Shown: one piece after another, positions 3,480 through 47,352 of the stretch
How positions within the stretch are numbered: position 1 is the first letter of the stretch
Layout: each line of letters opens with the position of its first letter
Assembly: GCA_021817905.1 (NCBI GenBank)
Contig: JAKAFM010000004.1
Coordinates: forward strand, 1-59,281
Length of the DNA: 59,281 bases
Direction: 5' to 3'
From: a bacterium
GTDB lineage: Bacteria > Patescibacteriota > Microgenomatia > UBA12405
Notes under the pieces: model-generated
What the model was told of the DNA's origin: nothing
What the model saw: the letters and a program-made list of their open reading frames with translations, nothing else
Databases searched by the model: none
Program-made: the position numbers and the translations under genes

Positions 3480-3481
3480 GG

Positions 3482-4549: not shown

Positions 4550-4614
4550 TCTTTATTAAAAGGGTATATATTCGATTGTAGCATGTGGCACTCATATAAG
4601 TAATATATGAGGTA

Positions 4615-4929: not shown

Positions 4930-4993
4930 ACCTAATATATTGTACAATACGTATGTGTTGTCTGAAATAAACAAGATTGAGAATACCCGAAGA

Positions 4994-6070: not shown

Positions 6071-6124
6071 GTGCAAATTGGTAATAGTTTTGTTATTATC
6101 TTCCCTGTTATTGATTACCTTATC

Positions 6125-8621: not shown

Positions 8622-8636
8622 CTGGTGAGAATTATA

Positions 8637-10364: not shown

Positions 10365-10440
10365 ATCGGCTTTTTATTATAGCGCCTATGGATTAAGTTA
10401 CTAGGAGGCAAAGCAAGCATTGTTTGTTACAATGACATCC

Positions 10441-14673: not shown

Positions 14674-14738
14674 AAAAAAGTATAGCTCAGCTTTTTATTT
14701 CAGGTAGTTTTCAGGAAAGGCTTATACTATAGGTGCAT

Positions 14739-15413: not shown

Positions 15414-15417
15414 AAGC

Positions 15418-16428: not shown

Positions 16429-16486
16429 TTATTTTAATCATTTATTATTAAGCTTGTTCTCAGATAATAAACTTACCATTACGGTT

Positions 16487-17710
16487 ATGAAAAAGAAATG
16501 GTTTGTAGTGGTGGCAGTTATACTAGTTATTGTCGGTTATTTCTATATTAGAAGTAAAAATAATACAGCCAAGGTCAGTTATCAGACAGCTCAGGCGACA
16601 AAAGATACTCTGATCACGACGGTAAGTGCGTCGGGCAACATCACTTCGGGAAACAATATTAACATTGCCACCAACGCTTCGGGAACGATTAATCAGGTTT
16701 TTGTTAAGAATGGTGATAAGGTGGTTGCCGGCCAGAAGATAGCCACAATCACACTAGATCAGGACGCTCTGCAACGGCAAACACAAGCATGGGCCAGTTA
16801 TTTGTCAGCTAAGAATCAATTGGCGACAGCCCAGGCAAATCTTAATCAATTGCAGGCGGCGGCGTTTGCAGCTAATCAAAAATTTATTAATGATGCGGTA
16901 TCGCGAAACTTATTACCTGGAGACCCAACTTATATTCAAGAGAATGCCACTTGGTTGCAAGCTCAAGCCAACTATATTAACCAAAATGGGCAAATTGCCC
17001 AAGCTCAGGCAGCACTTCAAAGTGCCTATTACACCTATCAACAAATATCTTCGACGGTGACGGCACCTTCGGCAGGGATAGTCAGCAACCTAACGATTGC
17101 CCCGGGATCACTGGTAAGTGGAGGAACGACATCGGGTAGTAGTTCGACAGCAGCGGCTCAAGTTATAGGGACTATTGCCAAAGAGCAACAAACCCAGGCG
17201 GTAGTTGATTTATCAGAAATCGATGCAGCTAAGGTTTCCCCAAATCAAAAAGTGACTATAACTATGGATGCTTTTCCGAATCAGACTTTTACCGGAAAAG
17301 TACTGGTTATTAATACTAATGGGGCTGTCAGCTCGGGGGTAACTACCTATCCGGCAACAATACTGTTTGATACTTCGCAAAGTAATATGTATCCCAACAT
17401 GGCAGTAAATGCCAAAATTATTACGGCGGTTAAGGATAATGTTATCTTGGTTCCCTCTTCGGCAGTACAGTCTGCCAACGGATCGAGTACTGTTCGGGAA
17501 TTACAAAACGGTAAACTCGTTAATGTTCCCGTAACGCTTGGCGACGCCAATGATAGTTTAACTGAGATAGTGTCGGGGGTTAATGAAGGTGATACGGTGG
17601 TTACTAGTGTAATTAATGGGGTAACTTTAACATCGGGTACCTCAACAACTTCACCTTTTAGTGGCCTAAACCGTGGAGGACCCGGTGGCTTTAGACGGAT
17701 TGGAGGCTAA
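16487..17710 (+). CDS. MacA/HlyD-type periplasmic adaptor protein
   Basis: TM anchor, lipoyl/barrel motifs (GTINQVFVKNGDKVVAGQKIATI), coiled coil; followed by MacB-like genes. Confidence 0.88.
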   Translation: MKKKWFVVVAVILVIVGYFYIRSKNNTAKVSYQTAQATKDTLITTVSASGNITSGNNINIATNASGTINQVFVKNGDKVVAGQKIATITLDQDALQRQTQAWASYLSAKNQLATAQANLNQLQAAAFAANQKFINDAVSRNLLPGDPTYIQENATWLQAQANYINQNGQIAQAQAALQSAYYTYQQISSTVTAPSAGIVSNLTIAPGSLVSGGTTSGSSSTAAAQVIGTIAKEQQTQAVVDLSEIDAAKVSPNQKVTITMDAFPNQTFTGKVLVINTNGAVSSGVTTYPATILFDTSQSNMYPNMAVNAKIITAVKDNVILVPSSAVQSANGSSTVRELQNGKLVNVPVTLGDANDSLTEIVSGVNEGDTVVTSVINGVTLTSGTSTTSPFSGLNRGGPGGFRRIGG

Positions 17711-17712
17711 TT

Positions 17713-18438
17713 ATGGCGAAAATTACCAAGCCGATTATAGAAACGAGCCACTTGTCAAAGATTTATAAGACCGATGATTTGGAGACAGTGGCCTTGGCTG
17801 ATGTTTCCTTTACAATCAATAAAGGTGAATTTGTAGCAATAATGGGGCCATCGGGGTCGGGTAAGTCGACCTTGATGCATATTTTGGGAGCGCTTGATAA
17901 GCCAACAAGTGGAACTTATATTTTGGATGGAGAAAACGTCGAGAAACTTGATGATGACGAGTTGGCGGATATCAGAAATAGAAAAATTGGTTTTATTTTT
18001 CAAGCCTTTAATTTGTTACCGCGGACAACAACCATGAAAAATGTGATGTTACCGATGGCTTACGCAGGCGTTCCAGTTGAAGAACGAGAGCAGACTGCCG
18101 AAAAGTTTTTGAAGATGGTCGGCTTGGGTGATCGGCTGAAACATACATCAAATCAGTTGTCGGGAGGTCAGCAACAAAGGGTAGCGATTGCCAGATCATT
18201 GGTAATGAACCCGGCATTATTGTTAGCCGATGAACCAACGGGAAATATTGCCAGTGCCCAAGCGGAAGAGATAATGGCAATTTTCCAGAAACTTAATAAT
18301 GAAGGACATACAATTGTGATGATTACTCATGAACCGGATATTGCCGAGCATGCCAAGAGGATTATTCACATTCGCGATGGCAAAATTTTTGAAGATAGTA
18401 ATAACCATCAGCAACGAAAGGTTAACCTTAAAAAATAA
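17713..18438 (+). CDS. MacB/LolD-type ABC transporter ATPase
   Basis: GPSGSGKST, LSGGQQQRVAIARSL, LLADEPTGNIAS. Confidence 0.95.
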   Translation: MAKITKPIIETSHLSKIYKTDDLETVALADVSFTINKGEFVAIMGPSGSGKSTLMHILGALDKPTSGTYILDGENVEKLDDDELADIRNRKIGFIFQAFNLLPRTTTMKNVMLPMAYAGVPVEEREQTAEKFLKMVGLGDRLKHTSNQLSGGQQQRVAIARSLVMNPALLLADEPTGNIASAQAEEIMAIFQKLNNEGHTIVMITHEPDIAEHAKRIIHIRDGKIFEDSNNHQQRKVNLKK

Positions 18439-18440
18439 TT

Positions 18441-19661
18441 ATGGAACTTATTGAACAAATAAAAGAAAGCTTAGGGATGCTAACCCTTAATAAAACGAGG
18501 ACAGGGTTGGCGATTTTGGGAATTGTGATTGGTATTGGCTCAGTAATTGCTTTGATTTCTCTTGGTCAGGCCAGTCAACAGGCGGTGGCTTCACAAATTC
18601 AAGGTTTAGGGGCGAATTTGCTAACAGTTCAACCAGGGGCAGTTAGCCAGGGGGCGGTTCGTGGAGCTGCCGGAGGCAACACTACTTTAACTAATGATGA
18701 TGCCACGGCTATCGCCAGCACCCCGCAAATTACAACGATTCAAAATGTTTCACCGGAGCTGTCGCGAAGGTCTCAGGTAAGAACGGGATCGAGCAATACC
18801 AATACACAAATTGTGGGGGTGACACCGGCTTATGCGCAAGTACATAAAATTACGGTGGATTCTGGAGCTTTTATAACTCAACGGGATGTTGATGCTATTA
18901 ATAAGGTGGCAGTGATTGGGCCACAAGTAGTAACCGATTTATTTAATGGCAATAGCCCCATTGGCCAAACTTTGAGAATTGGAACACAGACATTGACCGT
19001 TATTGGGGTGACAACCTCAAAAGGAGGGAGTGGTTTTTTTAACCAAGATGATATTATTTTTGTGCCGTTGTCGGTGGCTCAAAAACAATTGTTTGGGGTG
19101 AACTATTTAAGTTCAATTGCACTGGAAGCAAAAAGTTCTGATCAAATGACGAATGCCCAAAATGAAGTTGGTTATTTCTTGTTGGCTCGCCATCATTTTA
19201 ATGACCCGGCTCAAGCAGATTTTACGATTACTTCACAGCAGGATATTGTCAATACGGTATCGGCAACGACCGGGACTTTTACGACTTTACTATCGGGAGT
19301 AGCGGCAATTTCGTTATTAGTAGGCGGCATTGGGATTATGAACATTATGTTGGTGACGGTGACTGAACGAACTAGGGAAATTGGACTTCGAAAAGCTTTG
19401 GGTGCCAAAAAAGGAACTATTACGACCCAATTTTTAATTGAATCAATGATTTTGACTTTTTCCGGGGGGGTGATTGGAGTATTGTTGGGAATTGCGGCAT
19501 CGTATCTTTATTCAGTCAGTTCAAATTCGCCTTTTGTAGTATCGCCAAGCTCGGTAGTTTTGGCGTTTGTGGTATCGGTGGGAATCGGTATTTTGTTTGG
19601 TTGGTATCCGGCCAAAAGGGCCTCTCAGTTGCAGCCAATTGAAGCTTTGAGGTATGAATAA
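18441..19661 (+). CDS. MacB/FtsX-type ABC transporter permease
   Basis: LNKTRTGLAILGIVIGIGSVIALISLG, VTERTREIGLRKALGAKKGTI, YPAKRASQLQPIEALRYE. Confidence 0.95.
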   Translation: MELIEQIKESLGMLTLNKTRTGLAILGIVIGIGSVIALISLGQASQQAVASQIQGLGANLLTVQPGAVSQGAVRGAAGGNTTLTNDDATAIASTPQITTIQNVSPELSRRSQVRTGSSNTNTQIVGVTPAYAQVHKITVDSGAFITQRDVDAINKVAVIGPQVVTDLFNGNSPIGQTLRIGTQTLTVIGVTTSKGGSGFFNQDDIIFVPLSVAQKQLFGVNYLSSIALEAKSSDQMTNAQNEVGYFLLARHHFNDPAQADFTITSQQDIVNTVSATTGTFTTLLSGVAAISLLVGGIGIMNIMLVTVTERTREIGLRKALGAKKGTITTQFLIESMILTFSGGVIGVLLGIAASYLYSVSSNSPFVVSPSSVVLAFVVSVGIGILFGWYPAKRASQLQPIEALRYE

Positions 19662-19729: not shown

Positions 19730-21139
19730 TTATATATCTGGAAAAAGTATAGTTTCTCTTAAGCTTTTTTGATTACCCACAATCATTAATAATCTGTTTA
19801 GACCGATACCCAGTCCAGCAGTTGGTGGTACACCATAATTTAGGGCAATAACTAATGGATCAGTAGAATGATCTCTTTCTTGAATACCCATTTCACTGTC
19901 TTGACCTGCCAACTTCTTTTGAAGTTCAGTTGAGTTAACCAAATTAGTTGATATATCAGCGAATCCAATACCATTCATACATGCCCAAGCCCTTTCAACT
20001 TTATTTTCATCATATCCAGTTGTTTTTCCAAGTGGAGCTAGTCCAACCGGGAAATCCCTCAAAAATGTTGGTTGCAATAGTTTGGGTACAATAATTTTTT
20101 CAATTAACTTACCCACCTCCTGTGTTAAAGGAAGTCCCGAAAGTAGGATATTGTTTTTAGCAGCCATTTTTTTAAGGGAGTCTAAACTATTTATCTCATT
20201 TAGTGAAAAGTCTCCGAATAGCTTAAAGCCTTCATCTACAGTCATTTGTCCCCATTTTGTATCAACATTAATGCATTCTCCATTTAACAAAAAACGAGAT
20301 GTTCCAAACGCTCTCGTGACGGCTTCTCTAACCAAATATTCAGCCAAATCCATCATGCCGTTATAATCTGAATATGCAGCATATGCTTCTAGGGCTGTAT
20401 ATTCCGGGTTGTGGAATCTATCTTGCCCTTCATTCCTAAATGCTTTTCCTAGTTCATAAACCCTTTCATAACCAGCAGCAATCAACTGAACAAGTTCCAA
20501 TTCGCTTGTCGGTCTCATAAACATATCGGTTCCGAGCGAATTTTGGTGAGTGACAAATGGCTTAGCTTGACCAGACCTAAATTGTCTTCTTAAAACAGGT
20601 GTTTCAAATTCTTTAAAACCCAATCTATTAAGATTATCCCTTAATGACATATTTACTTTCGATATTCTGTCAAAAAAGACAAACGAATCTCTATCTGTAA
20701 TTAGTTGTAAAGGGAAATTGCCCCTTCTTTTACCGGTGTCCTGGACACCTTTATAACGATCTGGAAACGGCCCATTAAAACGAGTCACAACCTCTAATTG
20801 CTCCACAACTAGACTTCGCTCTTCCTTTTTAGATACAAAGGCTGAACCTGTAACACTAATTACGTCGCCTGTGTTTAACTGCTTGGCTAATTCGGTGGTT
20901 CCAGGTGTTGTCTCATCTGAAAAAGCTAACTGTGTTTGATCAGACTGGTCTTGGAGAACACCAAAACTTATTGATTTAAATCGTCTAAGATTTCTTACTC
21001 GGCCTCGTAACTCGACTTGTTTATTCTGTGAAAGGATAATACCAAAATCTCTTTTGAAATCGGCTATCAAAATACGCTTTGATTTTGGTTTACCATCTGC
21101 AATTGGTAATATACTTTCAATCATAATTTTATCTTCCAA
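19730..21139 (-). CDS. Class II lysyl-tRNA synthetase-like protein with diverged amino-acid/metal site (start TTG 21139 or ATG 21124)
   Basis: OB-fold VELRGRVRNLRRFKSISFGVLQDQ; motif 2 FRNEGQDRFHNPEYTALEAYAAYSDY; motif 3 GLGIGLNRLLM. Residues aligning with E. coli LysRS E414/E421/N424/E428 are W/G/D/N. Confidence 0.85.
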   Translation of the reverse strand: MEDKIMIESILPIADGKPKSKRILIADFKRDFGIILSQNKQVELRGRVRNLRRFKSISFGVLQDQSDQTQLAFSDETTPGTTELAKQLNTGDVISVTGSAFVSKKEERSLVVEQLEVVTRFNGPFPDRYKGVQDTGKRRGNFPLQLITDRDSFVFFDRISKVNMSLRDNLNRLGFKEFETPVLRRQFRSGQAKPFVTHQNSLGTDMFMRPTSELELVQLIAAGYERVYELGKAFRNEGQDRFHNPEYTALEAYAAYSDYNGMMDLAEYLVREAVTRAFGTSRFLLNGECINVDTKWGQMTVDEGFKLFGDFSLNEINSLDSLKKMAAKNNILLSGLPLTQEVGKLIEKIIVPKLLQPTFLRDFPVGLAPLGKTTGYDENKVERAWACMNGIGFADISTNLVNSTELQKKLAGQDSEMGIQERDHSTDPLVIALNYGVPPTAGLGIGLNRLLMIVGNQKSLRETILFPDI

Positions 21140-22103
21140 ATAGAAATCTCATAGTGTTTGTATAAGAAATATCTTTTCTGACTGAAGTTGGTAAGTCACC
21201 TAAAAGAGTGACTTCGTCTTCATAAACAACTTTTGTAAGAATTTTATGATTATTATCGTCTGTTACTGTCGTCCACGGCTCATCTGTACCCCAAAGAAGT
21301 CTGTCTGGGATCATTTTGTAAAGATCCATTATTACCTGTCTAGGTTTTGAATAGTCCAAATCCAATATTTTTCCATCGTCACGTCTTTGGGCAAAATAAC
21401 AGTTTGTGATATGTGGAGCCAGGTCGGTAAACAAGTTAGGTAACCCATCTTTTGTCAATACAGCAAACAGATCTTTTTCATAATCTCCCGTATGAGCTAT
21501 ACATATCCTTGTATCTGGGTATTTTTTCGCAACTTCGACTATTTGGTCAGGTCTTGAGTACTCATCGGGTCCCGAGTGAATCATAATTGGCAATGAATGT
21601 TCAGTGGCAAATTCTGTAAATTTGGAACCAATAAGTTTTAGGGCATGGGTATGGGTAGCCAGAGTGTGTAGTTTTAATCCAAAGAGTCTGTCCCCATCAA
21701 GAAGCTCTTTCAAAAGATTTAATTGTTCATCCTCTTTTGTACCTGGAAGAATATTTGCAAAAGGCATTATTTGTCCATTTCCAAAGAGTTCAACTTCTGC
21801 AAAGTGCGCTATGTTCGCGTGTTCATATGGAAATCTCTCGGCTGGTTTTTCTAGTTGTTCCCACACAGCATCAAATGCAACTTTTCTAGGGTCAAACCAA
21901 AACAAATCACTTGGGCCGGGAAATACAGCTGCATGGGTTATTCCGTTCGCATTCATCTTTCTGGCCATGTCTATAATACTTTGAGCGATTGGGTATCGAC
22001 GTCTTACTATATTGGTTAAATCTACCCCTGCGTGAGAATGGGCATCAATTGTTTTGGTGCCTGGACTAGCAAGATCTTTAAATATTTCTTCTCGTTCGAT
22101 CAT
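21129..22103 (-). CDS. Amidohydrolase-2-like metal-dependent hydrolase
   Basis: TIDAHSHAG (HxH), GLKLHTLATHTH, IMIHSGPDE, ICIAHTGD, LLWGTDEPW; start MIEREE. Confidence 0.82.
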   Translation of the reverse strand: MIEREEIFKDLASPGTKTIDAHSHAGVDLTNIVRRRYPIAQSIIDMARKMNANGITHAAVFPGPSDLFWFDPRKVAFDAVWEQLEKPAERFPYEHANIAHFAEVELFGNGQIMPFANILPGTKEDEQLNLLKELLDGDRLFGLKLHTLATHTHALKLIGSKFTEFATEHSLPIMIHSGPDEYSRPDQIVEVAKKYPDTRICIAHTGDYEKDLFAVLTKDGLPNLFTDLAPHITNCYFAQRRDDGKILDLDYSKPRQVIMDLYKMIPDRLLWGTDEPWTTVTDDNNHKILTKVVYEDEVTLLGDLPTSVRKDISYTNTMRFLFGR

Positions 22104-22106
22104 GTG

Positions 22107-22154
22107 TTGAAAAACTGGCAGGTGAAGTATACAATAACGGCAGTCCAGTATCAA
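22107..22154. promoter_or_regulatory. Overlapping divergent promoters between amidohydrolase and substrate-binding protein genes
   Basis: Plus: TTGAAA (22107-22112), 17 nt, TACAAT (22130-22135). Minus: TTGATA (22149-22154), 17 nt, TATACT (22126-22131). Confidence 0.65.
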
Positions 22155-22158
22155 ACCT

Positions 22159-23172
22159 ATGAGATATAACAAAGGCCTGACTATCGTCACTTTTTTAGTA
22201 GTCTGTTTTGTTGGCTTAAGTATTCTTCTTAAACATTTTAAAGTTGGATCTTACAGATCACAGATGAATGGAATCCGAGTTGGTTGGCAAATTCCGTGGG
22301 CGACTGAAGGGCAATTGGTGCAAGCAATGAAACACAAGAATCTTTTACAAAAACAGAACTTAAACCCGAATTTTATAGGTTTCAGTTCTGGGGCACCACT
22401 AAATGAAGCAGCTCTTTCGGGTAAAGTTGATGTTATTTTAACCGCGGATCAACCCGCAGCAACGTTACTTAACAAAAATTCTGATTGGGTCATTATAGGC
22501 CGTCTGATGTACAACCGTGTATCGTTATATGTCCCTCCCGATTCTCCAATCAAATCTGGAGCAGATTTAAGAGGTAAAACGGTAGCAATGCCTTTTGGTG
22601 CAGCTGCACAAAGGCTTGCATATAAAGTTGAGCAGAATGCTGGTCTTGATCCTAGTAAAGATGTCAAAAATATAAATATTGACATCTATGAACAATCCTC
22701 ATTGATTACAGATAAAAATGCTACAAAGTGGGGAAATATTGATGCGGTGGCTGGATTTGATCCCACCCCCGCTGTTTTGGAAGAAAAAGGACTTATTAGA
22801 AATATTGCTGTAGGTAAAGTGGTCTCAGTTGTGATGATGTCAAAATCGTATATAATTAAAAACCCAAATGCACCAACTGAATTCTTAAGAGCACTTAATA
22901 ATTCATATGTATACTATAAAGCTAATGTTGGTCAGGTTGATCAGTGGTTTAGAGACGAATCTAAGTTAAATGTTAGTTCGAAAGCTCTTGAAATATCAGC
23001 AAGTATTGAACCTAATATGACTCAACCAAATATTAATCTTTCTTTAAACGATGACGACTATCAGGTATTACAACAAGCAGCAGATTTTATTTATTCAGTA
23101 AAACTTATAAATAAAGACGTCACGATGAAGGATTTTGTGAATTTATCCAGTCTAAAAAATGTTAATAACTAA
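22159..23172 (+). CDS. ABC importer substrate-binding protein, NMT1/SsuA/ThiY-like, membrane-anchored
   Basis: N-terminal TM; VGWQIPWATEGQLVQAMKHK, FSSGAPLNEAALSGKVDVILTADQPAATLL, DLRGKTVAMPFGAAAQRLAYK. Confidence 0.8.
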   Translation: MRYNKGLTIVTFLVVCFVGLSILLKHFKVGSYRSQMNGIRVGWQIPWATEGQLVQAMKHKNLLQKQNLNPNFIGFSSGAPLNEAALSGKVDVILTADQPAATLLNKNSDWVIIGRLMYNRVSLYVPPDSPIKSGADLRGKTVAMPFGAAAQRLAYKVEQNAGLDPSKDVKNINIDIYEQSSLITDKNATKWGNIDAVAGFDPTPAVLEEKGLIRNIAVGKVVSVVMMSKSYIIKNPNAPTEFLRALNNSYVYYKANVGQVDQWFRDESKLNVSSKALEISASIEPNMTQPNINLSLNDDDYQVLQQAADFIYSVKLINKDVTMKDFVNLSSLKNVNN

Positions 23173-23174
23173 AA

Positions 23175-24305
23175 ATGAAGCAAAATTTGCTACTTATATC
23201 GCTGGATACTTTAAGGGCAGATGTTGCTTATAGTGGTAAATTTAAGACAATTGAAAAACTTCGTTCTTGCAGTGCCACTTTCATAAATACAATATCCTCA
23301 TCTCCCTTGACCCCATGTAGCCATGCCTCAGTTTTTACAGGATTACAACCATATAATCATGGCGTAAGACATTTATTTAAAGAAAAATTAAAAAAAGACA
23401 CAACAACCTTGGCACAAATACTTAAGGAAAATAATTATAAAACTAAAGCTATTATTTCTTGTCCTGGCATGAATAAATGGTATGGTTTTTCTAAGGGCTT
23501 TGATAATTATGATGACGAAATACCTTTACTCGCCGATGGCTCTGATCCTTTGAAAACTATTGATGTCAAAAAACGAGGCACAGCTTTAAAAAGAGCAAGT
23601 GTTGTTACTGAACGAGCGATTAATTGGTTAGAAAAAAACAAAGATGAACAATTTTTTCTCTTTATACATTATTTTGACGCTCATTGGCCGTATGAGGCGC
23701 CAGAAATATATGGTGGTGATAATGCATACGAGAACGAAGTTGCCTATTCAGATCATTATCTAGGTAAAGTCTTTGACTATTTAGAAAAAAATAAACTAAT
23801 GGATAGCACAACTATAGTTTGCTTCTCTGATCATGGCGAGGATTTAAATGGGTGGTATCCAAATGACAAAGGAGGTAAAAAATTAGGCCATCCTGAGGAA
23901 AATGGTCATGGATGCTTGCTTTATAATCAAACACAAAAAGTAGTTTTGATTATTAAAAACCGTATAATTTCAAAAAAGTCTAATTTTAACAATCAGGTTC
24001 GTTTGATAGATGTGTTACCCACTATCCTAGACTTACTTTCAATAAATTCAAAACTTAAGAATATTGATGGAATTAGTTTGCTACCGGTATTACAAAAAAA
24101 GATTAAAGACTCTTATATTGGTTATTCAGAAACTTTCTATCCTGAGGAGCAAGCCAAAACAGAACCTTCACTGAGCTATGTAAAAAACAAAAAAGCTTTC
24201 TTTTTTGATAACGAATTTAAGGTAATAAATAATTTGGATTCCGATTTGCAAGAAGCTTACGATCTTATAAGTGATATTAATGAAAAATATAACCTTATTA
24301 AATGA
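23175..24305 (+). CDS. Alkaline phosphatase/sulfatase-superfamily protein with Thr at the nucleophile position
   Basis: LLISLDTLRAD; TPCSHASVFTGLQPYNHGV in place of CxPSR; FSDHGEDL, GHGCLLYNQ. Confidence 0.82.
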   Translation: MKQNLLLISLDTLRADVAYSGKFKTIEKLRSCSATFINTISSSPLTPCSHASVFTGLQPYNHGVRHLFKEKLKKDTTTLAQILKENNYKTKAIISCPGMNKWYGFSKGFDNYDDEIPLLADGSDPLKTIDVKKRGTALKRASVVTERAINWLEKNKDEQFFLFIHYFDAHWPYEAPEIYGGDNAYENEVAYSDHYLGKVFDYLEKNKLMDSTTIVCFSDHGEDLNGWYPNDKGGKKLGHPEENGHGCLLYNQTQKVVLIIKNRIISKKSNFNNQVRLIDVLPTILDLLSINSKLKNIDGISLLPVLQKKIKDSYIGYSETFYPEEQAKTEPSLSYVKNKKAFFFDNEFKVINNLDSDLQEAYDLISDINEKYNLIK

Positions 24306-25720
24306 AAATCAATAATTCCGAGAAGTACAACAAAGTCATTTTAATCTCACTTGATACATTAAGAGCAGATTGTGTTCCGTCGAATCCCAATAAACTTTAT
24401 CCTTCTGAATACAAAGCAAAAGTTAAACTTAATGACTCTGAGGTAAATAAATTATTTTCTAAAGGTGTGTTTTTTAATAATGTTGTGTCGGCTGCGCCCT
24501 ACACATCTTCGTCGCATGCAGCATATTTTACAGGCAAATGGCCTATTCGTAACGGGGTTTACGATCAATTTAACAGCAAACTAAAAACTAAAAGTATTTT
24601 TCAAATATACAAACAAAATGGATATGAGACGATTTTTAAAACAGATTTTCCATTCATTCTGGGTAAATATCTTAACATGATAAAGGGTGTAGATAAATAT
24701 TTTATAGAAGACACGCCATCAGCACTCAAAGAACTTAAATCTAAAAAGAAACAACTGGCATTCTTTCATTTCGGACAGTTCCACTATCCATACGGATTCC
24801 ATAATCTTAAATATGGAGGTAAAGATTATGTCAATAAAATAAACTTTTTAGAGAAAAAATATAAAATTCCAACAGACAAAATTAACTTGGAAGATATGGC
24901 TATGGAGTCGTTTAGGTCAAAAGAAGATACTGAGTTGCTTTATAGATATAAAAAGATAATTGCATACCTTTATAAACACAGGTTGGATAATGATCTCTTT
25001 AATCTTTATTTGGAAGGCATTAATTATTTTAATAAAAACTTTTTGGATAAATTTATAAAAGAACTGCTCGAAACTATTAACAATCAAAACTATTTACTAG
25101 TTATATTTTCCGATCACGGGGAGGCATGGAATGATTATTCCTATGGTCATCACAATTCTTTTGATGAAGGAGTTATCAGAGTTCCTATTGTTTTTTACTA
25201 TAAAGGTGTAACTCCAAAATTATATTCAAATAGGGTACGTACAATAGACCTTGCCCCTACACTTAATGATTTATTATCACCAAACAGTAACAGATTTGAT
25301 GGAAAGAGCTTGTATAAAAAAGTATTTGCTGACGAAGAAGATGGTAACCTTGATGCTTTTTCTGCAATTTGGGTAAATGAATCTACTGATGTCATCAAAA
25401 AAGTCAGAACATTAATTGATAAAGACGAACTAACATTTAATAAATCGCTTTCCATAAGATACGGAGCGGCTTACTATCAACAAAATCTAAAATATACTGA
25501 ATACTATAAAAGATTTACAAATCGGTCTGAGGAGTTAAGTGATGTAAAAGAACATGATACTTTTGAAATCACAGACAATCTTAATGTTTTACAGACACAG
25601 AAAAGATTACCAAAATCTATAAAGCAAAATATAAACAAACTTAACAACATAAAATTACAGTCAAACTCCTCACCTGATATTGTGCGTACTTATCTACGTT
25701 TAAGTGGATACAAGGTCTAA
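24302..25720 (+). CDS. Second sulfatase-superfamily protein with Thr at the nucleophile position
   Basis: VILISLDTLRAD; YTSSSHAAYFTGKWPIRNGV; FSDHGEAWND, YGHHNSFDEGVIRVPIVF; 4-nt ATGA overlap with upstream gene. Confidence 0.82.
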   Translation: MKINNSEKYNKVILISLDTLRADCVPSNPNKLYPSEYKAKVKLNDSEVNKLFSKGVFFNNVVSAAPYTSSSHAAYFTGKWPIRNGVYDQFNSKLKTKSIFQIYKQNGYETIFKTDFPFILGKYLNMIKGVDKYFIEDTPSALKELKSKKKQLAFFHFGQFHYPYGFHNLKYGGKDYVNKINFLEKKYKIPTDKINLEDMAMESFRSKEDTELLYRYKKIIAYLYKHRLDNDLFNLYLEGINYFNKNFLDKFIKELLETINNQNYLLVIFSDHGEAWNDYSYGHHNSFDEGVIRVPIVFYYKGVTPKLYSNRVRTIDLAPTLNDLLSPNSNRFDGKSLYKKVFADEEDGNLDAFSAIWVNESTDVIKKVRTLIDKDELTFNKSLSIRYGAAYYQQNLKYTEYYKRFTNRSEELSDVKEHDTFEITDNLNVLQTQKRLPKSIKQNINKLNNIKLQSNSSPDIVRTYLRLSGYKV

Positions 25721-25721
25721 T

Positions 25722-26300
25722 ATGTCAATTACAACTAAAACTATTCTAAAACTGCAGTATGGTGACTTTACGACTTGTTATCACGAAACAAAAACTGGTG
25801 AGTGTATATCTTTAAGTTATGGAGATATAACAAAACCCTTACCTGTTGTTCGAATTCATTCTTCATGTCTTTTTGGTGAATCGTTTTTATCTCTCCATTG
25901 TGAATGTCGGAATCAACTTGAAGAAACACTTAAACAAATTAAGAAAAACGGTTCAGGTGTGATCATATACACATATGCAGAGGGAAGAGGGATTGGTTTA
26001 GAGAAAAAAATAAAAGCAATGGAAGTTCAAAGAACAAAAAATTTGGATACTGTACAGGCATTTGAGTTTTTAGGGCTACAACCAGACCTTAGAACATATA
26101 GCACTGAAGTAACCGCACTTAAAGAGCTTTATGTAAACCGTAATATAAAGCTAGTTTCAAACAATCCAAATAAGATTAATGCCCTAAATAAGGCAGGTTT
26201 TGTTATAAAAAAAATAGTTAAATTAACCATCAAATTAAATGAATACAACTCAAAAGAATTGATAACCAAAAAGACAAAACTAGGCTATTATATTGATTAA
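25722..26300 (+). CDS. GTP cyclohydrolase II-like enzyme (RibA family), Tyr105->Met variant
   Basis: HSSCLFGESFLSLHCEC (three Zn Cys), EGRGIGLEKKIKAMEVQ, LDTVQAFEFLGLQPDLRTY, LVSNNPNKI. Confidence 0.85.
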   Translation: MSITTKTILKLQYGDFTTCYHETKTGECISLSYGDITKPLPVVRIHSSCLFGESFLSLHCECRNQLEETLKQIKKNGSGVIIYTYAEGRGIGLEKKIKAMEVQRTKNLDTVQAFEFLGLQPDLRTYSTEVTALKELYVNRNIKLVSNNPNKINALNKAGFVIKKIVKLTIKLNEYNSKELITKKTKLGYYID

Positions 26301-26307
26301 AAGTTTT

Positions 26308-27048
26308 ATGAGAAAAAACATATTAGTACTATTATCCGTTTTGATCTTTTGGCAGATATTGGACTACCTTGCCCTTAACCGTAGCGGTCAGTTCACTTCA
26401 CCTTTCAGTCTTATAACATCAATAATTAATACAATTAAGAATGGGGAAATATTATCAGATGCGCTTGCGAGTATCGTACGAGTCTCCATAGGTTTTGTGA
26501 TTGCTACCTTTTTAGCTATCCCATTAGCCCTGATTTCAGAAACCAATAAAATTATGCGCATTTTTATAAATCCCATTATTGAAGTATTACGTCCAATTCC
26601 ACCAATTGCGTGGATACCAATATCCATTATTTTTTTTGGCCTTGGAGATACGTCATCCTATTTTATTGTCTTTTTAGGCTCATTCTTTCCGATATTCAGT
26701 AATACTTATTTGGGCGCTTCGTCATTGCCGACAATATACAAACATATCGCAGAAACGTTTGAATTGAATAAATCAGATTATTACAGAAAGGTGTTATTAA
26801 AGTTTTCCCTTCCTTATATTTTTACTGGATTAAAAATTGGGATTGGAATGGCATGGATGAGTGTAATCGCCTCAGAACTAGTTAGCGGCCAATCTGGACT
26901 GGGGTATTATATTCAGATCAATAGATTACTTCTTAATCTCGATAACGTAATTATTGGGATGGTATTTATTGGTTTTATTGGGATTGTTTTTAATTTTGGT
27001 TTTACTAAACTAGAACGTAAAATGATACCTTGGAGGAAAAAAATATGA
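26308..27048 (+). CDS. ABC importer permease (SsuC/TauC/ThiX type)
   Basis: EVLRPIPPIAWIPISIIFFGLGDTSSYFIVFLGSFFPIFSNTYLG, GMAWMSVIASELVSGQSGLGYYI. Confidence 0.9.
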   Translation: MRKNILVLLSVLIFWQILDYLALNRSGQFTSPFSLITSIINTIKNGEILSDALASIVRVSIGFVIATFLAIPLALISETNKIMRIFINPIIEVLRPIPPIAWIPISIIFFGLGDTSSYFIVFLGSFFPIFSNTYLGASSLPTIYKHIAETFELNKSDYYRKVLLKFSLPYIFTGLKIGIGMAWMSVIASELVSGQSGLGYYIQINRLLLNLDNVIIGMVFIGFIGIVFNFGFTKLERKMIPWRKKI

Positions 27049-27737
27049 TTTTGATAAAAAATTTATCCTATTCTTACGATATGAATACATATCAAACTAT
27101 TAAGGATCTGTCTTTCAATATACAACAAGGTGAGTTTGTTAGTATTTTAGGAAAATCGGGTTGTGGTAAAACGACATTGGCAAATATTATTTGCGGGTAT
27201 TTAAAACCTACAGAAGGGAAAATAGAAATAGATGGAAAAGCAAGTTTTTATCCGAACAAAAATAAAATTATAATAAACCAAGAAGACGATCTGTTTGATT
27301 GGATGACTATTTACCAGAATATGGAAATTGCTACTCAAGACCGAGACTTAATTCTTAAATATCTCCTTCTTGTAAATCTAGAAGATAGAATAAACGAGTA
27401 TCCGTCTAGTTTGTCTGCTGGAATGAAAAAGAAGTTGTCGTTTATAAGGGCCTTATCTGCAAAACCAGATCTGCTTATTCTTGATGAACCATTTTCGTAT
27501 TTGGACTATTCCACAAAAGCCGAGCTTCTTAAACAGTTTCAAAGAATTATTAAATCATCTAATACTACGACGATCTTAATCACCCACAACATAGACGAAT
27601 CTTTATATTTATCGGATAGAATAATAGTTTTAAAAGGTTATCCGTTTAAAATTTCTAAAGATATTAGATTGGATAGCAAGAAGATTAAAGGACATGCGAT
27701 GGCTAGTTTGGTTGATGACATCAAAAAATCATACTAA
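27045..27737 (+). CDS. ABC importer ATPase (SsuB/TauB/ThiZ type)
   Basis: GKSGCGKTT, SSLSAGMKKKLSFIRAL signature variant, LLILDEPFSYLD; start overlaps permease stop. Confidence 0.92.
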   Translation: MILIKNLSYSYDMNTYQTIKDLSFNIQQGEFVSILGKSGCGKTTLANIICGYLKPTEGKIEIDGKASFYPNKNKIIINQEDDLFDWMTIYQNMEIATQDRDLILKYLLLVNLEDRINEYPSSLSAGMKKKLSFIRALSAKPDLLILDEPFSYLDYSTKAELLKQFQRIIKSSNTTTILITHNIDESLYLSDRIIVLKGYPFKISKDIRLDSKKIKGHAMASLVDDIKKSY

Positions 27738-27743
27738 CTTTGG

Positions 27744-27749
27744 TATAAT
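27744..27749 (+). promoter_or_regulatory. -10 element TATAAT, 5 nt before the S66 peptidase ATG
   Basis: tggTATAATcgcttATG. Confidence 0.55.
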
Positions 27750-27754
27750 CGCTT

Positions 27755-28741
27755 ATGGACAAAATATTTCCAGAAAAGCTTAAACAAGGTGATGAGGTAC
27801 GAATTATCACTCCTTCTAGATCTTTGGCAATAATTAGCAAAGAGAACAGAGAAAATGGAAACAAAAGATTTGCTGAATTGGGGCTAAAACTTTCATTTGG
27901 AAAACACGCGGAAGAAATTGATGATTTTGTTTCCTCATCAATTAAATCGAGAATAGAAGATTTACATAATGCTTTTTCTGACGAAAATGTTAAAGCCATT
28001 TTGACTGTAATTGGAGGATTTAATTCCAACCAACTTTTGAAATACATTGACTGGAATTTAATAAAAAATAACCCAAAAATCTTTTGTGGATTTTCTGATA
28101 TTACAGCTCTAAATAATGCAATTTTTGCAAAGACTAGCCTTGTTACATATTCTGGACCATTTTATTCAACTTTTGGACAAAAATTATATTTTGACTACAC
28201 CCTGGATTACTTCAAAAAATGTTTGATGTCAGAGGAATCTTTTGAGGTAAAGCCAAGCGATAATTGGAGCGAAGATGTGTGGTATAAGGATCAGAACAAC
28301 AGAAAGTTAGTTCAAAATCCAGGCTGGGTGATAATAAATGAAGGAAAAGCCGAAGGGACAATACTTGGTGATAATTTGTGTACTTTTAACTTACTCCAAG
28401 GAACGGAGTATTTTCCCGATTTATCCAATTCGATTCTATTTATCGAGGATGATGAAGAATCAGCCCCTCATAATTTTGACAGAGATTTACAGTCATTAAT
28501 TCATCTTCCGAATTTTCATAAAGTTAAAGGGATTGTGATAGGAAGATTCCAAAAAGCCAGCGAAATGACAAACGACCTGTTAATTCAAATTATAAAGTCT
28601 AAGAAAGAGTTAAATAATATTCCAGTGATTGCAAATTTGGACTTTGGTCATACAGATCCCAAAATGACTTTCCCGATCGGGGGAAATGTAAAAATATCCG
28701 CATCTAACTTAAAAGTTTCTATTATTATAACTAGCCACTAG
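27755..28741 (+). CDS. Peptidase S66 family (LD-carboxypeptidase / MccF-like)
   Basis: GFSDITALNNAIFAKTSLVTYSGP (Ser), SILFIEDDEESAPHNFDRDL (Glu), LDFGHTDPKMTFPIGG (His). Confidence 0.88.
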   Translation: MDKIFPEKLKQGDEVRIITPSRSLAIISKENRENGNKRFAELGLKLSFGKHAEEIDDFVSSSIKSRIEDLHNAFSDENVKAILTVIGGFNSNQLLKYIDWNLIKNNPKIFCGFSDITALNNAIFAKTSLVTYSGPFYSTFGQKLYFDYTLDYFKKCLMSEESFEVKPSDNWSEDVWYKDQNNRKLVQNPGWVIINEGKAEGTILGDNLCTFNLLQGTEYFPDLSNSILFIEDDEESAPHNFDRDLQSLIHLPNFHKVKGIVIGRFQKASEMTNDLLIQIIKSKKELNNIPVIANLDFGHTDPKMTFPIGGNVKISASNLKVSIIITSH

Positions 28742-29358: not shown

Positions 29359-29431
29359 TGTAATATACATTATAGGCTCTTTAATTATTGATTTAAAGAC
29401 TCAAAAGAGGTAGAATGGCGGATATGAATGA
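29359..29431 (+). repeat. Conserved leader/promoter repeat, copy A
   Basis: gtaatatacattataggctctttaa-tattgattta...aatggcggatatga shared with copy B at 35149. Confidence 0.8.
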
Positions 29432-30992
29432 TGGAGAGAAGCTTATTCGTAAATTGTTAGTAGCTGCAACGTTAACAAGTGGTTTGGCGGCATGTGCTCC
29501 CCAACCCAAGGCAGCAACTCCAGAAATTGTTGGAGGAACGGTGACTCCGGTACCTAGTGCCACGGCTCCAGAAACAGCAACAGTAACTGCCAGCGGCACT
29601 CCCCAGGGTTTAGAGATCAGTCCGACGGTGGCTGCCTTAACGGCCACTCCTGAGTCAATAGAAACAGCCACTACAGTACCAAAGGCTTCGTTGGGAGCAG
29701 TGGAAGTTTTAGGAGCTGGTGATTCAACGATGCTGGGAATGGTTGATCAGGCCAGCTTACAAAAGATAGCTGAAAAGATGGGTCCGGGGGTCATTGTTTA
29801 CTTAAAGGCTGGAGTGCCAAGTGGAACAATTGAACAAGTGGGGAGTAACTATCAGGGAGTGATTACCCAAGTTCCCCAAGAGATAATGGTTACTGGGATA
29901 AGCTACTCTTTAAATCTGTCCAATAGTACTCCCTCTAAAGTAGTGGGGGCAGAGTATGTCTCGGCTGAGGGAAAGAAAATCACTTTGGATAATCAATGGT
30001 TAGCAAGCGGATTAAACTCGGCAGTGGATATAGTATATTATTTTCAAGATCAAAAGAACCCTGACCAGATAAAGGCAGGATTATTACTGAAGAATGGAGA
30101 GGTGGTAAAGGGGAATATTGATAAAGTGAAGGAGGCAGTAGATGTGGTTTCCGTTGACCAAATGGAGCCAATCGATGCCTCTAAAAACCCAGAAAAAATT
30201 GCGGCATTACCAGTCAAAACAGCGGTGGAAGCGTGGGTAAAGGGAAAAATCAGACCAGGAGTCGATCAAGGTATAACTAATGTAAATGCTACAAAATATA
30301 AAGATGGAACAGTAAGATTTGGTGTTATTGATACTGAGGACAATGTTATAAAGGGACAATTGTTAGCTACAAATGATTACATGCCGGCTATTATATTGGG
30401 ATTAGATAAAGCGACTGGTAATGGAATTGAAAATGTGGCGCTCGGAATAACGAGGAAAAACTTACAAGGAGAAGATGTTCAAATTGTACTACGGGTTCCT
30501 TTTGATACTTTTATGGACGTTGGTTATGTTGATAATAAGATAGATGCTTCGTCAAGAAAAAATATTACTGACAGGGCAGCATTTTCTGCTGTTTTAGATA
30601 CAAAAGTTGGTTCGGTGGCTTTAGTCGGCTATCTACGAAAATTTGTACCCGGGGTATTTTTAAATGTAATTGAAGTTAAAAAGGTAAATACATCATATAT
30701 TGATAATGATCCAACTATGCAAAAAGAACCGGAAGATGTGCGTAATTGGGCTAAATTGATGCTCATACTTGATGCAAATGCAGGTAAAGATGTTTCTGGT
30801 TACACAGTTCCAGTTTTGATTGATAAGGCACAAAAACAAGTACAACAATATAAAACATTTGATTTACTTTCAGGATTTTTTACTGGAAAAACGGACAAAA
30901 TTCCTGATGGAGATATTATTTTACCAAATTCAACGGTAACAAAGCTTAATTTGAAAAATATCAGTATTGCTGTTCCACACGAAGGTTCATAA
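29424..30992 (+). CDS. Lipoprotein with Thr/Pro/Ala-rich linker, paralog A (track start 29415)
   Basis: KLIRKLLVAATLTSGLAAC lipobox; ASLGAVEVLGAGDST shared with paralog at 35205. Confidence 0.75.
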   Translation: MNDGEKLIRKLLVAATLTSGLAACAPQPKAATPEIVGGTVTPVPSATAPETATVTASGTPQGLEISPTVAALTATPESIETATTVPKASLGAVEVLGAGDSTMLGMVDQASLQKIAEKMGPGVIVYLKAGVPSGTIEQVGSNYQGVITQVPQEIMVTGISYSLNLSNSTPSKVVGAEYVSAEGKKITLDNQWLASGLNSAVDIVYYFQDQKNPDQIKAGLLLKNGEVVKGNIDKVKEAVDVVSVDQMEPIDASKNPEKIAALPVKTAVEAWVKGKIRPGVDQGITNVNATKYKDGTVRFGVIDTEDNVIKGQLLATNDYMPAIILGLDKATGNGIENVALGITRKNLQGEDVQIVLRVPFDTFMDVGYVDNKIDASSRKNITDRAAFSAVLDTKVGSVALVGYLRKFVPGVFLNVIEVKKVNTSYIDNDPTMQKEPEDVRNWAKLMLILDANAGKDVSGYTVPVLIDKAQKQVQQYKTFDLLSGFFTGKTDKIPDGDIILPNSTVTKLNLKNISIAVPHEGS

Positions 30993-31034
30993 AGCATTGT
31001 TATCGAGCGGAATATATTATATTCTTACATATAT

Positions 31035-31631
31035 ATGTTCCGGAAGGTTATGGTTTTCGTTGTCGTTCTAGTTGTTGGATTTGTTGTTTATTGGCTATTT
31101 TCTTCACCTTCAAAACATACTAATGCTCAAATAAATGATTGTAATGGTCAGTTTGCTTTAGACAAAACTGTAAAGTCTTGTGGTTTGGTTAGCTTGTCAA
31201 ATAATACTACTAATTATTATGTTGGAATATTAAAGTCTGTAAGAAAAAGTGGTACAAGTTATTATTTGGATCTTGATGTTGGTAGAGTTATTCCGCTTAG
31301 TTTCTTAATATTTGATTCTATAGGGGTTCATACTGGCAGTGATGTAAAATCACCCACAATCATTAAGGCAGACATAATTGCTCAACTTAAGCCGTATATT
31401 GGTCAAAAAATAACATTACTTTCCCCAAATGGAAAGAGTTTTGCGAGTGTATTGAATTCTCTTTTACCAAAAATTCCGCTTACTCAGTCTATTGGGGTAA
31501 GAAATATGATAGGCTATTTAAATCAGTGTGATGGTGAAATGTCAGAAATGAAGACGGGGGATGTAGTTTATACTTATGGTTTTTTAAAAACCGGCTGTAA
31601 TCTACTGGTAAATGATATATATGTTAACTAA
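31035..31631 (+). CDS. Small N-terminally anchored hypothetical protein, module A
   Basis: MFRKVMVFVVVLVVGFVVYWLF; same position in module as 36689..37225. Confidence 0.65.
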   Translation: MFRKVMVFVVVLVVGFVVYWLFSSPSKHTNAQINDCNGQFALDKTVKSCGLVSLSNNTTNYYVGILKSVRKSGTSYYLDLDVGRVIPLSFLIFDSIGVHTGSDVKSPTIIKADIIAQLKPYIGQKITLLSPNGKSFASVLNSLLPKIPLTQSIGVRNMIGYLNQCDGEMSEMKTGDVVYTYGFLKTGCNLLVNDIYVN

Positions 31632-34600
31632 GTTTGTAAGATTTGGGTTAGTATTTTTATTTTTTCTATTTTTATTTAAATTGTCTGTTTTTGCAAGTTA
31701 TTGTTCTGGAAAAACTACCTGGAATAATAGTTATAATACTTGCGACAGTCTTGGATATGGGGGTTATGTATATTGTAATAGTCATTCGTCTGGTCAATCG
31801 GCTAGCTGTGGAGGTACTAGTACAAATTGTGGTTCATTTGTAATGATTTGTTCTGACTCGTGCAGTGTTAACCAGAGTCAAACGGCGTGTAATATAACTA
31901 GTAATGGATGTGTTCAAAATTGGCAATCATCAAATTGCAGTTCGTGTACTTCAAACTGCAGTAATCCTGGTTCTCATTGCGGTAGTTTTTCTGATGGTTG
32001 CGGAGGATGGTGTACTGGAACACTGACGTGTACTGGTGGCCAAACATGTCAAAACGATAGCTGCGCTTGCCCAAGTGGACAATGTACTGTAAATGGGCAA
32101 TGTACGGCACCTAGCTGTGGTTCGTGGGGTTCGTGTTCAACGGGGTGTGGCAATCATACCCAAACAAGAACAGAAGTCTGCGGAGGCTGCGGTGGGGTTT
32201 TGTCACAGGGTTGCGGGGCCTGCACCGAATGCCAGACCTGCACCCGACAGTGTGGTCAGAGTAAAGATTGTGGAGGCAGCTGTGCCCAAGGTTATGAATG
32301 TACCAATCCCCTGGCGCCGACTAACCCGATTCCTAACAATGCCACTAGTTCACCTTTGGTAATCGCGACTCCAAATATTACTTTACAGTGGAGCGATCCG
32401 GCCAACACGGCTCCGCCTTATAATTTTGATAATTTTGTAGTTAGTGCTGACGGGGCGGTGGTGGGAACATTACCAAACACTCAACATAGTTTTCTTTTCC
32501 CGGCGTCGGGAAGTATGGTTGGTAACCATAAGTATGGCTGGACCGTACAGACGTACAAGGCTGCAAATTGTAATGGTTTGGGATGTGGGGCTAATGGCTA
32601 TAGTCCGGCGGTGGGAGGCTATTTTTGTTACCAAGTGACTCCGGGGGCACCGACCATGGCTAATGGCAATGGAGTAAGCGCCAGTAGCCCGTATGGTTTT
32701 CCGAACACGACCACGGCAAATTTAACTTGGAATTTGGATGAAACTAATCACAGTGCCACGATTAAATATGAAGTGCAAGTGCTTGATTCGTCGGGGAGCA
32801 CGATTTTAGCTTCAACAACAACGACCAATGCAACGATTAACACCTATAGTTTCACTGGTTCTAAGGGGGTGGTCTATAGTTGGAAGGTGCGAGCACTTTC
32901 AACTTCCTGTACCGGAGTGGCATTGCAAGGCCCATGGACAACTGGTTACTTTATCTTTGCAACGCCGCCGATTTTTAATGACTTTAATATTTATAGTGTG
33001 ACGGATACGATGACTAACGGTTATCATGATGGGTCGTTGGTGGCACCTCAAAATACCAGCATTGGTTTTAGTGGAAACCAGATTTGTCAGCAGCCATTCC
33101 AAATGTCAACACACCCGCGAAGTGTTTCGTTTCGAGTAGGGGTCGTTGATAATAGTGGTATTACTAGTATTTCAGAAATTGACATGAGGTTTGTTAACCG
33201 GAGTACCGGGACAGTTTACACTACGGCGAAATTAACTGGTATGGATACGGGTAGTCTTGCTTACAGCTCAACACCCAACATTGGACTTACTTTCTATGAG
33301 ACGCCACACACGATTACGGTAGGGACAACCGAAGTTCAAGCGATTTTCCCATTAACTTTTCCTGATAACTTTAATCCTTTAAATTATGAAATTAATGTTT
33401 GGGCAGTAGATAAATATGGGTTGACAATTGTTAATGGCGGAGGGTCAACACCTGTCCCGCCGGCAACTACCTGTACGGGAATTATGTATTACCTCAGTCC
33501 AGCTTCGCCGGAAAATCCTAATACATCGGTTAATGTTAATATTGACCGGTCAACAGCAACCAGTTGTAGCGGAAATTGGAATAATGTGGGCTTTTTGCTT
33601 GACGGAGTGTCACTGCCGGGAGGGTCGATAGGTTATCTGGACGGCTCAAATACTGGCAGTGGTTATCATTGGCCGATAAATAGTGGTGCGGTTGGAACTC
33701 ATACCATTCAATTTACGGTAAACAACGGAGCTTGTACGTGTAATCCAAATTACTTTTTAACCGTGTCACCGCTGACAGCTGATGGCTGGGTTGATGCTAA
33801 TCGAACCTTTAAATCATGGAGTTGTGCCGTGGCAGTATCGGGTGATGTTTACGATGCCAGTGCCTATTCCTTTACTGACCTGACCAGTTGTTTGAGCAGT
33901 ATTTACACCCCAACCAACTTGTATAGCCAAAACCCGAGTATGTTTAAGACACTGGATTGGCAACAGAACGGAACTAGTTCGAACACCAGTACGACAATTA
34001 GTAATATTTCCCATTATGTAGTTAACGTTGGCTTGACTTGGGGATATCAATATTTGCCACTTTTTAATGCCGATAGCGATATGCCGGGATTAAACCAACA
34101 TATGCGGGTATCAGATACTGGAACCAATGGGGCACCATCACCAGTAACGAATCTTTGTTGGGCGAGTAGTTTTAGTCCATCAATTTTGGATTTGCGAGGG
34201 GCAGTTGGAAGTCAATTTGTGGTCAATCCTTATGCGGATAATCCCAGCGCACAAGTTGACTTTGCGGGAATTAGGAATCAGGATCCATGGTTTCAAGCGG
34301 TTGGCGGTGGAATCCAATCGGATGGAGTGTTGCATAGTGCGGTGCCCGTAACTTGTAGTGTCAGTAATGCCTCAACTCCAGGGAGTTGTTTGCCGGCATT
34401 ATCGATTAGCAGTGCCGGTAATTTGGATAGCGGGGTGGTTACCGGTAAGAGTGGAATTACTAATACTAATGGTTGTGCCACCAACCAATGCTTCAACGGC
34501 TACCCTTCACCAGACCGAAACTGGAGTGTTGCTGGCGCTAATGTTTCAACTGTGGCTAGTGTGGACTATAACAAACTTATTAATCAACTGTATTACCAAT

Positions 34601-35061
34601 CGGGTATTGGATCGACGATGATTTTCAACAGTAATCCCAGTGCTAATACCAATGCCTGGCAAACTATTATTGCGGATCCTAATTATGCCCATCAAGTTTT
34701 GTTTATTGATACTTTAGGCCAGGGATTAACGATTTCTAGTGACTTGACGCTACCGGCTAATTCGTATTCAGTCATGGTGGTTAATGGTGATATTACCGTT
34801 GACCCATCAGTTTCCCGACTGGATGGTATCCTGGTCTCTACGGGAACTATTGCTATCGGAGGGAAAGCTCCCACCGATAATCAACTGGTCATCAACGGAT
34901 CATTGTTTGGCAAGACACTTTCGTTTACCAGAAGCTATACGACGGCTTCTCTTAATAATACCCAACCGGCAGTAAAGATTAACTACCAACCGGGATACAT
35001 GATATTATTACCTCAGAAAGTATTTAGAAATGTGGGCGCTTGGTCACAGGGAGCGCAGTAA
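31621..35061 (+). CDS. Giant secreted Cys-rich protein, paralog A
   Basis: Signal peptide MLTKFVRFGLVFLFFLFLFKLSVFA; Cys-rich N-terminal third; Fn3-like segments; C-terminus shared with 37227..40220. Confidence 0.8.
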   Translation: MLTKFVRFGLVFLFFLFLFKLSVFASYCSGKTTWNNSYNTCDSLGYGGYVYCNSHSSGQSASCGGTSTNCGSFVMICSDSCSVNQSQTACNITSNGCVQNWQSSNCSSCTSNCSNPGSHCGSFSDGCGGWCTGTLTCTGGQTCQNDSCACPSGQCTVNGQCTAPSCGSWGSCSTGCGNHTQTRTEVCGGCGGVLSQGCGACTECQTCTRQCGQSKDCGGSCAQGYECTNPLAPTNPIPNNATSSPLVIATPNITLQWSDPANTAPPYNFDNFVVSADGAVVGTLPNTQHSFLFPASGSMVGNHKYGWTVQTYKAANCNGLGCGANGYSPAVGGYFCYQVTPGAPTMANGNGVSASSPYGFPNTTTANLTWNLDETNHSATIKYEVQVLDSSGSTILASTTTTNATINTYSFTGSKGVVYSWKVRALSTSCTGVALQGPWTTGYFIFATPPIFNDFNIYSVTDTMTNGYHDGSLVAPQNTSIGFSGNQICQQPFQMSTHPRSVSFRVGVVDNSGITSISEIDMRFVNRSTGTVYTTAKLTGMDTGSLAYSSTPNIGLTFYETPHTITVGTTEVQAIFPLTFPDNFNPLNYEINVWAVDKYGLTIVNGGGSTPVPPATTCTGIMYYLSPASPENPNTSVNVNIDRSTATSCSGNWNNVGFLLDGVSLPGGSIGYLDGSNTGSGYHWPINSGAVGTHTIQFTVNNGACTCNPNYFLTVSPLTADGWVDANRTFKSWSCAVAVSGDVYDASAYSFTDLTSCLSSIYTPTNLYSQNPSMFKTLDWQQNGTSSNTSTTISNISHYVVNVGLTWGYQYLPLFNADSDMPGLNQHMRVSDTGTNGAPSPVTNLCWASSFSPSILDLRGAVGSQFVVNPYADNPSAQVDFAGIRNQDPWFQAVGGGIQSDGVLHSAVPVTCSVSNASTPGSCLPALSISSAGNLDSGVVTGKSGITNTNGCATNQCFNGYPSPDRNWSVAGANVSTVASVDYNKLINQLYYQSGIGSTMIFNSNPSANTNAWQTIIADPNYAHQVLFIDTLGQGLTISSDLTLPANSYSVMVVNGDITVDPSVSRLDGILVSTGTIAIGGKAPTDNQLVINGSLFGKTLSFTRSYTTASLNNTQPAVKINYQPGYMILLPQKVFRNVGAWSQGAQ
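34873..35001 (+). repeat. Near-identical 129-nt 3' block, copy A
   Basis: accgataatcaactggtcatcaacgg...gggatacatg; 2 mismatches versus 40032-40160 by manual alignment. Confidence 0.85.
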
Positions 35062-35148
35062 AGAATCGTATTATAAGATGGTAAATAATAATATTTGTTA
35101 GGTATTTTAGACGGTATATACGGATATACTTTATCTACATATTTGATA

Positions 35149-35221
35149 TGTAATATACATTATAGGCTCTTTAAATATTGATTTAGAAGCCTAAAAGGGG
35201 TACAATGGCGGATATGAGTAA
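35149..35221 (+). repeat. Conserved leader/promoter repeat, copy B
   Basis: Same block as 29359-29431, offset 5790 bp. Confidence 0.8.
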
Positions 35222-36644: not shown

Positions 36645-36688
36645 TCGTTGAGTTGTGGTGAGTGTAGATAAAATTATATACTGTTTAG

Positions 36689-37225: not shown

Positions 37226-37226
37226 T

Positions 37227-47321: not shown

Positions 47322-47352
47322 ATGAGAAGTATACCCGAATAAAACCCGAATA

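Follow-up and report, generated by a model that had tools for sequence, protein, structure and literature searches.

Organization of the locus

The window analyzed here, that is, the whole stretch of 59,281 nucleotides corresponding to contig 29 of the source genome, contains a run of seven co-directional genes from position 22159 to 28741 (about 6.6 kb), with intergenic gaps of -19 to +17 bases. The run, on the forward strand, starts with a membrane-anchored ABC substrate-binding protein of the SsuA/NMT1 family (22159..23172) and two hydrolases of the alkaline-phosphatase ("sulfatase") superfamily (23175..24305 and 24302..25720). These are followed by a homologue of GTP cyclohydrolase II (GCH II; 25722..26300), an ABC permease of the NtrB/SsuC/TauC type (26293..27048), an ABC ATPase of the NtrCD/SsuB type (27030..27737), and an S66 peptidase of the MccF-like branch (27755..28741). 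For the GCH II homologue, the longest reading extends from 25704 to 26300 with a GTG start (198 residues), and the in-frame ATG at 25722, 1 base past the upstream stop, gives 192 residues; the frame is intact.

In both hydrolases, the formylglycine Cys is replaced by Thr, as observed by alignment in the first one and in the motif TSSSH, read from the sequence, in the second one, and we therefore rejected them as true sulfatases. As far as can be judged from sequence, a Thr at this position makes phosphoester chemistry likelier than sulfate removal for both enzymes. The best PDB matches of the S66 peptidase are BA_5613 and Lmo1638 (E about 1e-120 to 1e-113); the protein scores 403 bits against BA_5613 and is near Lmo1638, which suggests a Firmicute-like source or an ancestry common with such proteins.

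The binding protein is rare, being present in 3 of 351 genomes of the class; the solved structures closest to it are distant SsuA-like ones, and its plasmid homologues are less than 33% identical. In the genome G007, homologues of the binding protein and of the first hydrolase (59% and 66% identity, respectively) occur in the same order, with the contig ending within the hydrolase gene. No GCH II was found in the G007 genome, and no second copy of the operon with a GCH II was seen. Also, a distantly related ABC importer is present in G025 (L066, 4735-8772), with a radical-SAM/B12 protein between the binding protein and the permease, and a sulfatase-family gene nearby. A role in anti-phage defense was rejected because PADLOC gave generic ATPase matches and one weak match only.

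Upstream of the operon, two divergent genes are encoded on the reverse strand, a PF04909 amidohydrolase (21129..22190) and a lysyl-tRNA synthetase-like gene (19730..21139). The longest reading of the amidohydrolase overlaps the start of the first operon gene; its GC content is 39% (GC3 30%) versus 31% (GC3 22%) for the GCH II gene, and it is probably outside the operon unit. The lysyl-tRNA synthetase-like protein has a GC3 of 0.26 and is 30% identical to that of the same-genus genome G001.

Met replaces the catalytic Tyr in a conserved GCH II framework

The window protein matches the Pfam family PF00925 (GTP_cyclohydro2) with 133.8 bits (cut-off 23.3), and its AlphaFold2 model (mean pLDDT 88) has the E. 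coli GCH II structure 2bz0 as the best structural match (E 3.6e-16, TM 0.79/0.87). In the alignment to E. coli RibA, the zinc ligands C54/C65/C67 and the catalytic R128 are conserved (C49/C60/C62 and R124 in the window protein, numbered from the ATG), and Asp126, Glu92, Arg94, Lys154, and NNP are also retained (E. coli numbering, used below). We take Glu92, Arg94, and Lys154 to be candidates for the contacts with the guanine and the phosphates. However, Tyr105 of E. coli corresponds to Met100 of the window protein, in a stretch where the alignment is unambiguous (KIRAYALQ versus KIKAMEVQ). Further changes at near-invariant positions are T56F, which adjoins a zinc Cys, and N118F, together with a one-residue insertion, whereas Q91A occurs in the window protein alone, and Gln is present in the relative closest to it. 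The E. coli segment RQEGRNIGL reads YAEGRGIGL. A previous reading of this DNA (hereafter the sequence-only reading) had placed a Met at the Tyr105 position of this gene, with the zinc cysteines, the Arg, and the YAEGRGIGL motif; the alignment confirms all of this, coordinates and motifs included. That reading did not cover T56F, N118F, the insertion, or the operon.

Tyr105 is present in 29 of 29 Tyr-type comparison sequences, a set grouped by having this residue and composed of E. coli, two plasmid-borne sequences, and, for the remainder, RibAs of the same class; no alternative residue occurs among close RibA relatives. Given this invariance, the Met is real and specific. Other residues at position 105 are found in more divergent GCH II homologues of the class. 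For example, a homologue with Leu at this position is present in G034, from the same family (L052, 3192-8087), where its row of genes also encodes a glycosyltransferase, FemAB/GNAT-like acetyltransferases, and a PIG-L deacetylase. Also, a divergent homologue from G246 without the Tyr105 motif (L055, 6511-9600) shares its gene row with a HAD phosphatase, a PfkB kinase, and a short-chain dehydrogenase; here, too, the fold may serve a purpose other than riboflavin.

UTP cyclohydrolase is a relative of GCH II whose substrate is UTP. Its structures (PDB codes: 7eev and 7ej3) share with the window protein the GCH II fold and the Cys pattern of the zinc site, but the identity in the structural match is 23-24%, the enzyme is longer, and a Tyr at position 105 is apparently kept. 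The window protein falls outside this family (198 versus about 420 residues; 30.8 versus 403 bits, NF005536-like).

A Met-type clade apparently separate from the Streptomyces enzymes

The motif EGRxxGLxxKxxAM, located at 25980..26021 of the forward strand, is diagnostic of the Met-type, with 0 chance matches expected in the window. The corresponding DNA pattern, which was run across 84,980 species, contains the AAA lysine codon only and therefore misses other Met-types (e.g. that of G361). It matched 47 loci, all but two of them from Actinomycetes and nearly all from Streptomyces. The two exceptions, from Paceibacterota Bin_542 (L102) and Pacearchaeota (L104), are the nearest relatives of the window protein, with 42% and 54% identity, respectively. 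Moreover, the three proteins form one clade in the tree (support 99/98) and have in common T56F, Y105M, N118F, and the one-residue insertion. Unlike in the window, no importer or hydrolase operon was found within the 8 kb around L104 and L102. Creatininase, lumazine synthase, and flavokinase were not found in these two genomes either, the flavokinase model being one that excludes archaeal riboflavin kinases. In L102 (1684-3008), the Met-type GCH II overlaps a 201-residue ORF with no Pfam match, nucleoside deoxyribosyltransferase-like by eye.

Among 380 sampled genomes of the phylum, the pattern occurs in the window genome only, and a contig scan using the single window protein gave no match. 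A class-level search recovered an additional Met-type of the same class, from G361 (L051), whose genome also has no detected lumazine synthase or flavokinase. Unlike the window protein, the Met-types of G361 and Streptomyces retain Thr56 and Asn118. In the best tree, the window clade is apart from the Streptomyces Met-types and Met105 takes three changes; neither a single Met clade (AU p 0.063) nor the window clade joined to Streptomyces (AU p 0.067) is rejected at 5%. The window clade is also separate from the RibAs of riboflavin operons in the class of the source genome. The window protein scores under the cut-off of the NCBIfam ribA equivalog TIGR00505 (150.1 versus 205.85 bits), and so do L104 and L102, whereas the Streptomyces and G361 Met-types score over it; the wider subfamily PRK00393 does include the window protein (160.1 versus 148). 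A viral origin of the Met-type was rejected, since the sole IMG/VR match to the pattern (L119) is in a reading frame that does not encode a GCH II, and no relative came up in an alignment search.

Riboflavin genes and FAPy deformylases

The source genome (817 kb in 31 contigs, 97% complete) has one GCH II according to the family search, that of the window, and "paralog", the term of the sequence-only reading, is thus inexact. Lumazine synthase (PF00885) and flavokinase (PF01687) were not found in this genome with models that match 14 of 14 and 10 of 14 control genomes, respectively. Also, a concatenated CPR RibE-RibH-RibB-RibD query, aimed at close homologues, gave no match here and matched four of the nine genomes run together, all of them RibA-bearing relatives. 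These gene absences, and those below, refer to a draft assembly. Riboflavin operons containing RibA occur elsewhere in the same class. A sole GCH II in a genome where lumazine synthase, flavokinase, and close RibB, RibD, and RibE homologues were not found makes riboflavin synthesis very unlikely and a riboflavin role unlikely, and we rejected this role on that ground; the product probably has a use outside vitamin B2. This agrees with the sequence-only reading, which had noted the lack of adjacent riboflavin genes, an observation that now extends genome-wide for the families searched, and had favored a non-riboflavin role. It had also considered that the gene could be the only GCH II of a full riboflavin pathway encoded elsewhere: the gene is indeed the only one, and the pathway was not found.

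A creatininase-family gene is present near 45 of 49 distinct Met-type loci versus 0 of 39 Tyr-type loci, where the former come mostly from one related Actinomycete set with non-independent Streptomyces loci, and the latter have short flanks and include repeats. In G361, such a gene is one gene away from the Met-type GCH II. The two creatininase relatives that were scored fall under every NCBIfam equivalog cut-off. Archaeal ArfB is a creatininase-family enzyme that deformylates 2-amino-5-formylamino-6-ribosylamino-4(3H)-pyrimidinone 5'-phosphate (FAPy), and SCO6655 is said to release FAPy, a result attributed to Spoonamore and Bandarian. A second creatininase-family enzyme, BrbF from Sinorhizobium and Brucella, deformylates the FAPy nucleotide (PMC9478397). 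As the known FAPy deformylases belong to this family, the presence of one of its genes next to a Met-type GCH II fits an enzyme stopping at FAPy. SCO6655 itself appears in a list of genes with an expression anticorrelated to the predicted flux; most genes of this list are upregulated in stationary phase (PMC2853524).

The analogy with SCO6655 drawn by the sequence-only reading thus has contextual support from the Streptomyces and G361 Met-types, which lie beside creatininase-family genes, but is weaker for the window clade. No creatininase (PF02633) was found in the window genome by a Pfam search, the same Pfam family matching Methanocaldococcus. The creatininase was accordingly discarded as the missing deformylase, no FAPy-processing enzyme being found in this search. 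For comparison, we used S. fungicidicus CNQ36_RS30625 (L067), from the SCO6655 group, which stands for SCO6655 by residue and context and not by the SCO6655 sequence. This protein shares Met105, the zinc ligands, and the Arg with the window protein, but keeps Thr56 and Asn118, has no insertion, and adjoins a creatininase-family gene. The apparently different clade, the two extra changes at near-invariant positions, and the insertion make it unsafe to equate the window protein with SCO6655, and its chemistry or substrate may differ.

Probable acquisition of the operon

The GC content of the operon is 32% versus 40% in the other sequence of the window, and its GC3 is low. Both flanks are syntenic with G001 (window 913-19661 and 45851-57389, about 33-87% identity), whereas for the tested genes between them, no homologue was found in the intervening 13 kb of G001, a search covering most of the bases of this genome. 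The lysyl-tRNA synthetase-like gene (19730) is the first of the variable stretch absent from G001, which extends past the operon to include downstream genes. The composition and the absence from G001 indicate that the operon was probably acquired by horizontal transfer. Downstream, at 29415-40220, there are long ORFs, five of six without a Pfam match at threshold and one with a weak TAT signal, for which no homologue was found in the matching interval of G001.

Proposed function and alternatives

We tentatively favor, at somewhat less than an even chance, that the window protein is an active zinc-dependent GCH II homologue in an acquired importer operon, which stops at FAPy and whose product is used outside flavin metabolism. 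In the mechanism that we infer, from the activity and the substrate to FAPy as product and all later steps, the enzyme would bind GTP or a close purine nucleotide, the conserved Arg would drive the release of pyrophosphate, and the imidazole ring would then be opened. Without the catalytic Tyr, the reaction would halt at FAPy, with no deformylation toward riboflavin; FAPy would perhaps be handled by the two presumably co-transcribed Thr-type hydrolases, and the ABC importer would bring a partner compound. The conservation of the zinc ligands and Arg128 speaks for an enzyme that binds GTP, releases pyrophosphate, and opens the ring, and the simplest prediction from the missing Tyr105 is that deformylation no longer takes place and FAPy is the product. 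As for the two hydrolases, it is solely their place in the same operon that makes them candidates. The role of Arg128 according to a review is the release of pyrophosphate (PMC10366380). Counting against this reading are T56F, N118F, the insertion, Q91A, and the score below the ribA equivalog cut-off, as well as the failure to find a FAPy-processing enzyme in the genome or a second operon copy with a GCH II.

Indeed, T56F beside a zinc Cys, N118F, Q91A, and the insertion could just as well point to a different substrate, the enzyme then being a cyclohydrolase or pyrophosphohydrolase for another nucleotide, such as a modified purine perhaps derived from the importer. The apparent co-transcription with an importer and two hydrolases and the structural kinship with UTP cyclohydrolase agree with this possibility; the retention of Glu92, Arg94, and Lys154, and the distance of UTP cyclohydrolase, which appears to retain Tyr105, do not, and we consider it unlikely. 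Those same alterations, with the score under the equivalog cut-off, would also be expected of a non-catalytic or decaying homologue, e.g. a GTP-binding regulator of the importer. However, this is improbable for a protein with three zinc Cys and Arg128 kept, an intact frame, and a well-formed fold model, whose motifs also recur in an archaeal relative of 54% identity.

The clear overall similarity to RibA with complete zinc ligands and Arg, together with the riboflavin operons of the same class, would instead fit ordinary GCH II chemistry, in which the Met is tolerated and APy is made, either as the remnant of a riboflavin pathway since lost or as a precursor for other cells. This seems improbable given the otherwise invariant Tyr105, the downstream riboflavin genes not found in the genome, a clade apart from the riboflavin-operon RibAs, and an operon that looks acquired and not vestigial. 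On the other hand, FAPy could be made and then deformylated to APy, for a non-flavin product, by the adjoining PF04909 amidohydrolase, an idea already raised by the sequence-only reading. The gene is adjacent and overlaps the operon in its longest reading, and in a genome where no creatininase was found, any requirement for APy would call for a deformylase of another kind. Nonetheless, it is a weak candidate, suggested by adjacency alone: it lies on the opposite strand and has a lower AT content than the core of the operon, and the two FAPy deformylases known from experiments are from the creatininase family. We know of no FAPy deformylase in PF04909, and we consider this possibility very improbable.

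Returning to the favored reading of an active GCH II homologue that stops at FAPy, a broader proposal, rather unlikely at present, is that a distinct CPR/DPANN subfamily of GCH II (Phe56/Met105/Phe118) founds a non-flavin pathway in cells where no flavin biosynthesis was detected. This pathway would start from a formylated pyrimidine nucleotide or an opened purine nucleotide other than GTP, and in the window genome it would be linked to two phosphoester hydrolases and a dedicated importer.

Because a GCH II gene is usually taken as a riboflavin gene, automatic annotation would assign the first step of vitamin B2 synthesis to an organism in which none of the later steps was detected. The Phe56/Met105/Phe118 clade, if confirmed, would mean that a pyrimidine chemistry derived from GTP and separate from flavins is common to reduced-genome bacteria and archaea. 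It would then also offer a compact way of testing how a single Tyr separates the formation of FAPy from that of APy.
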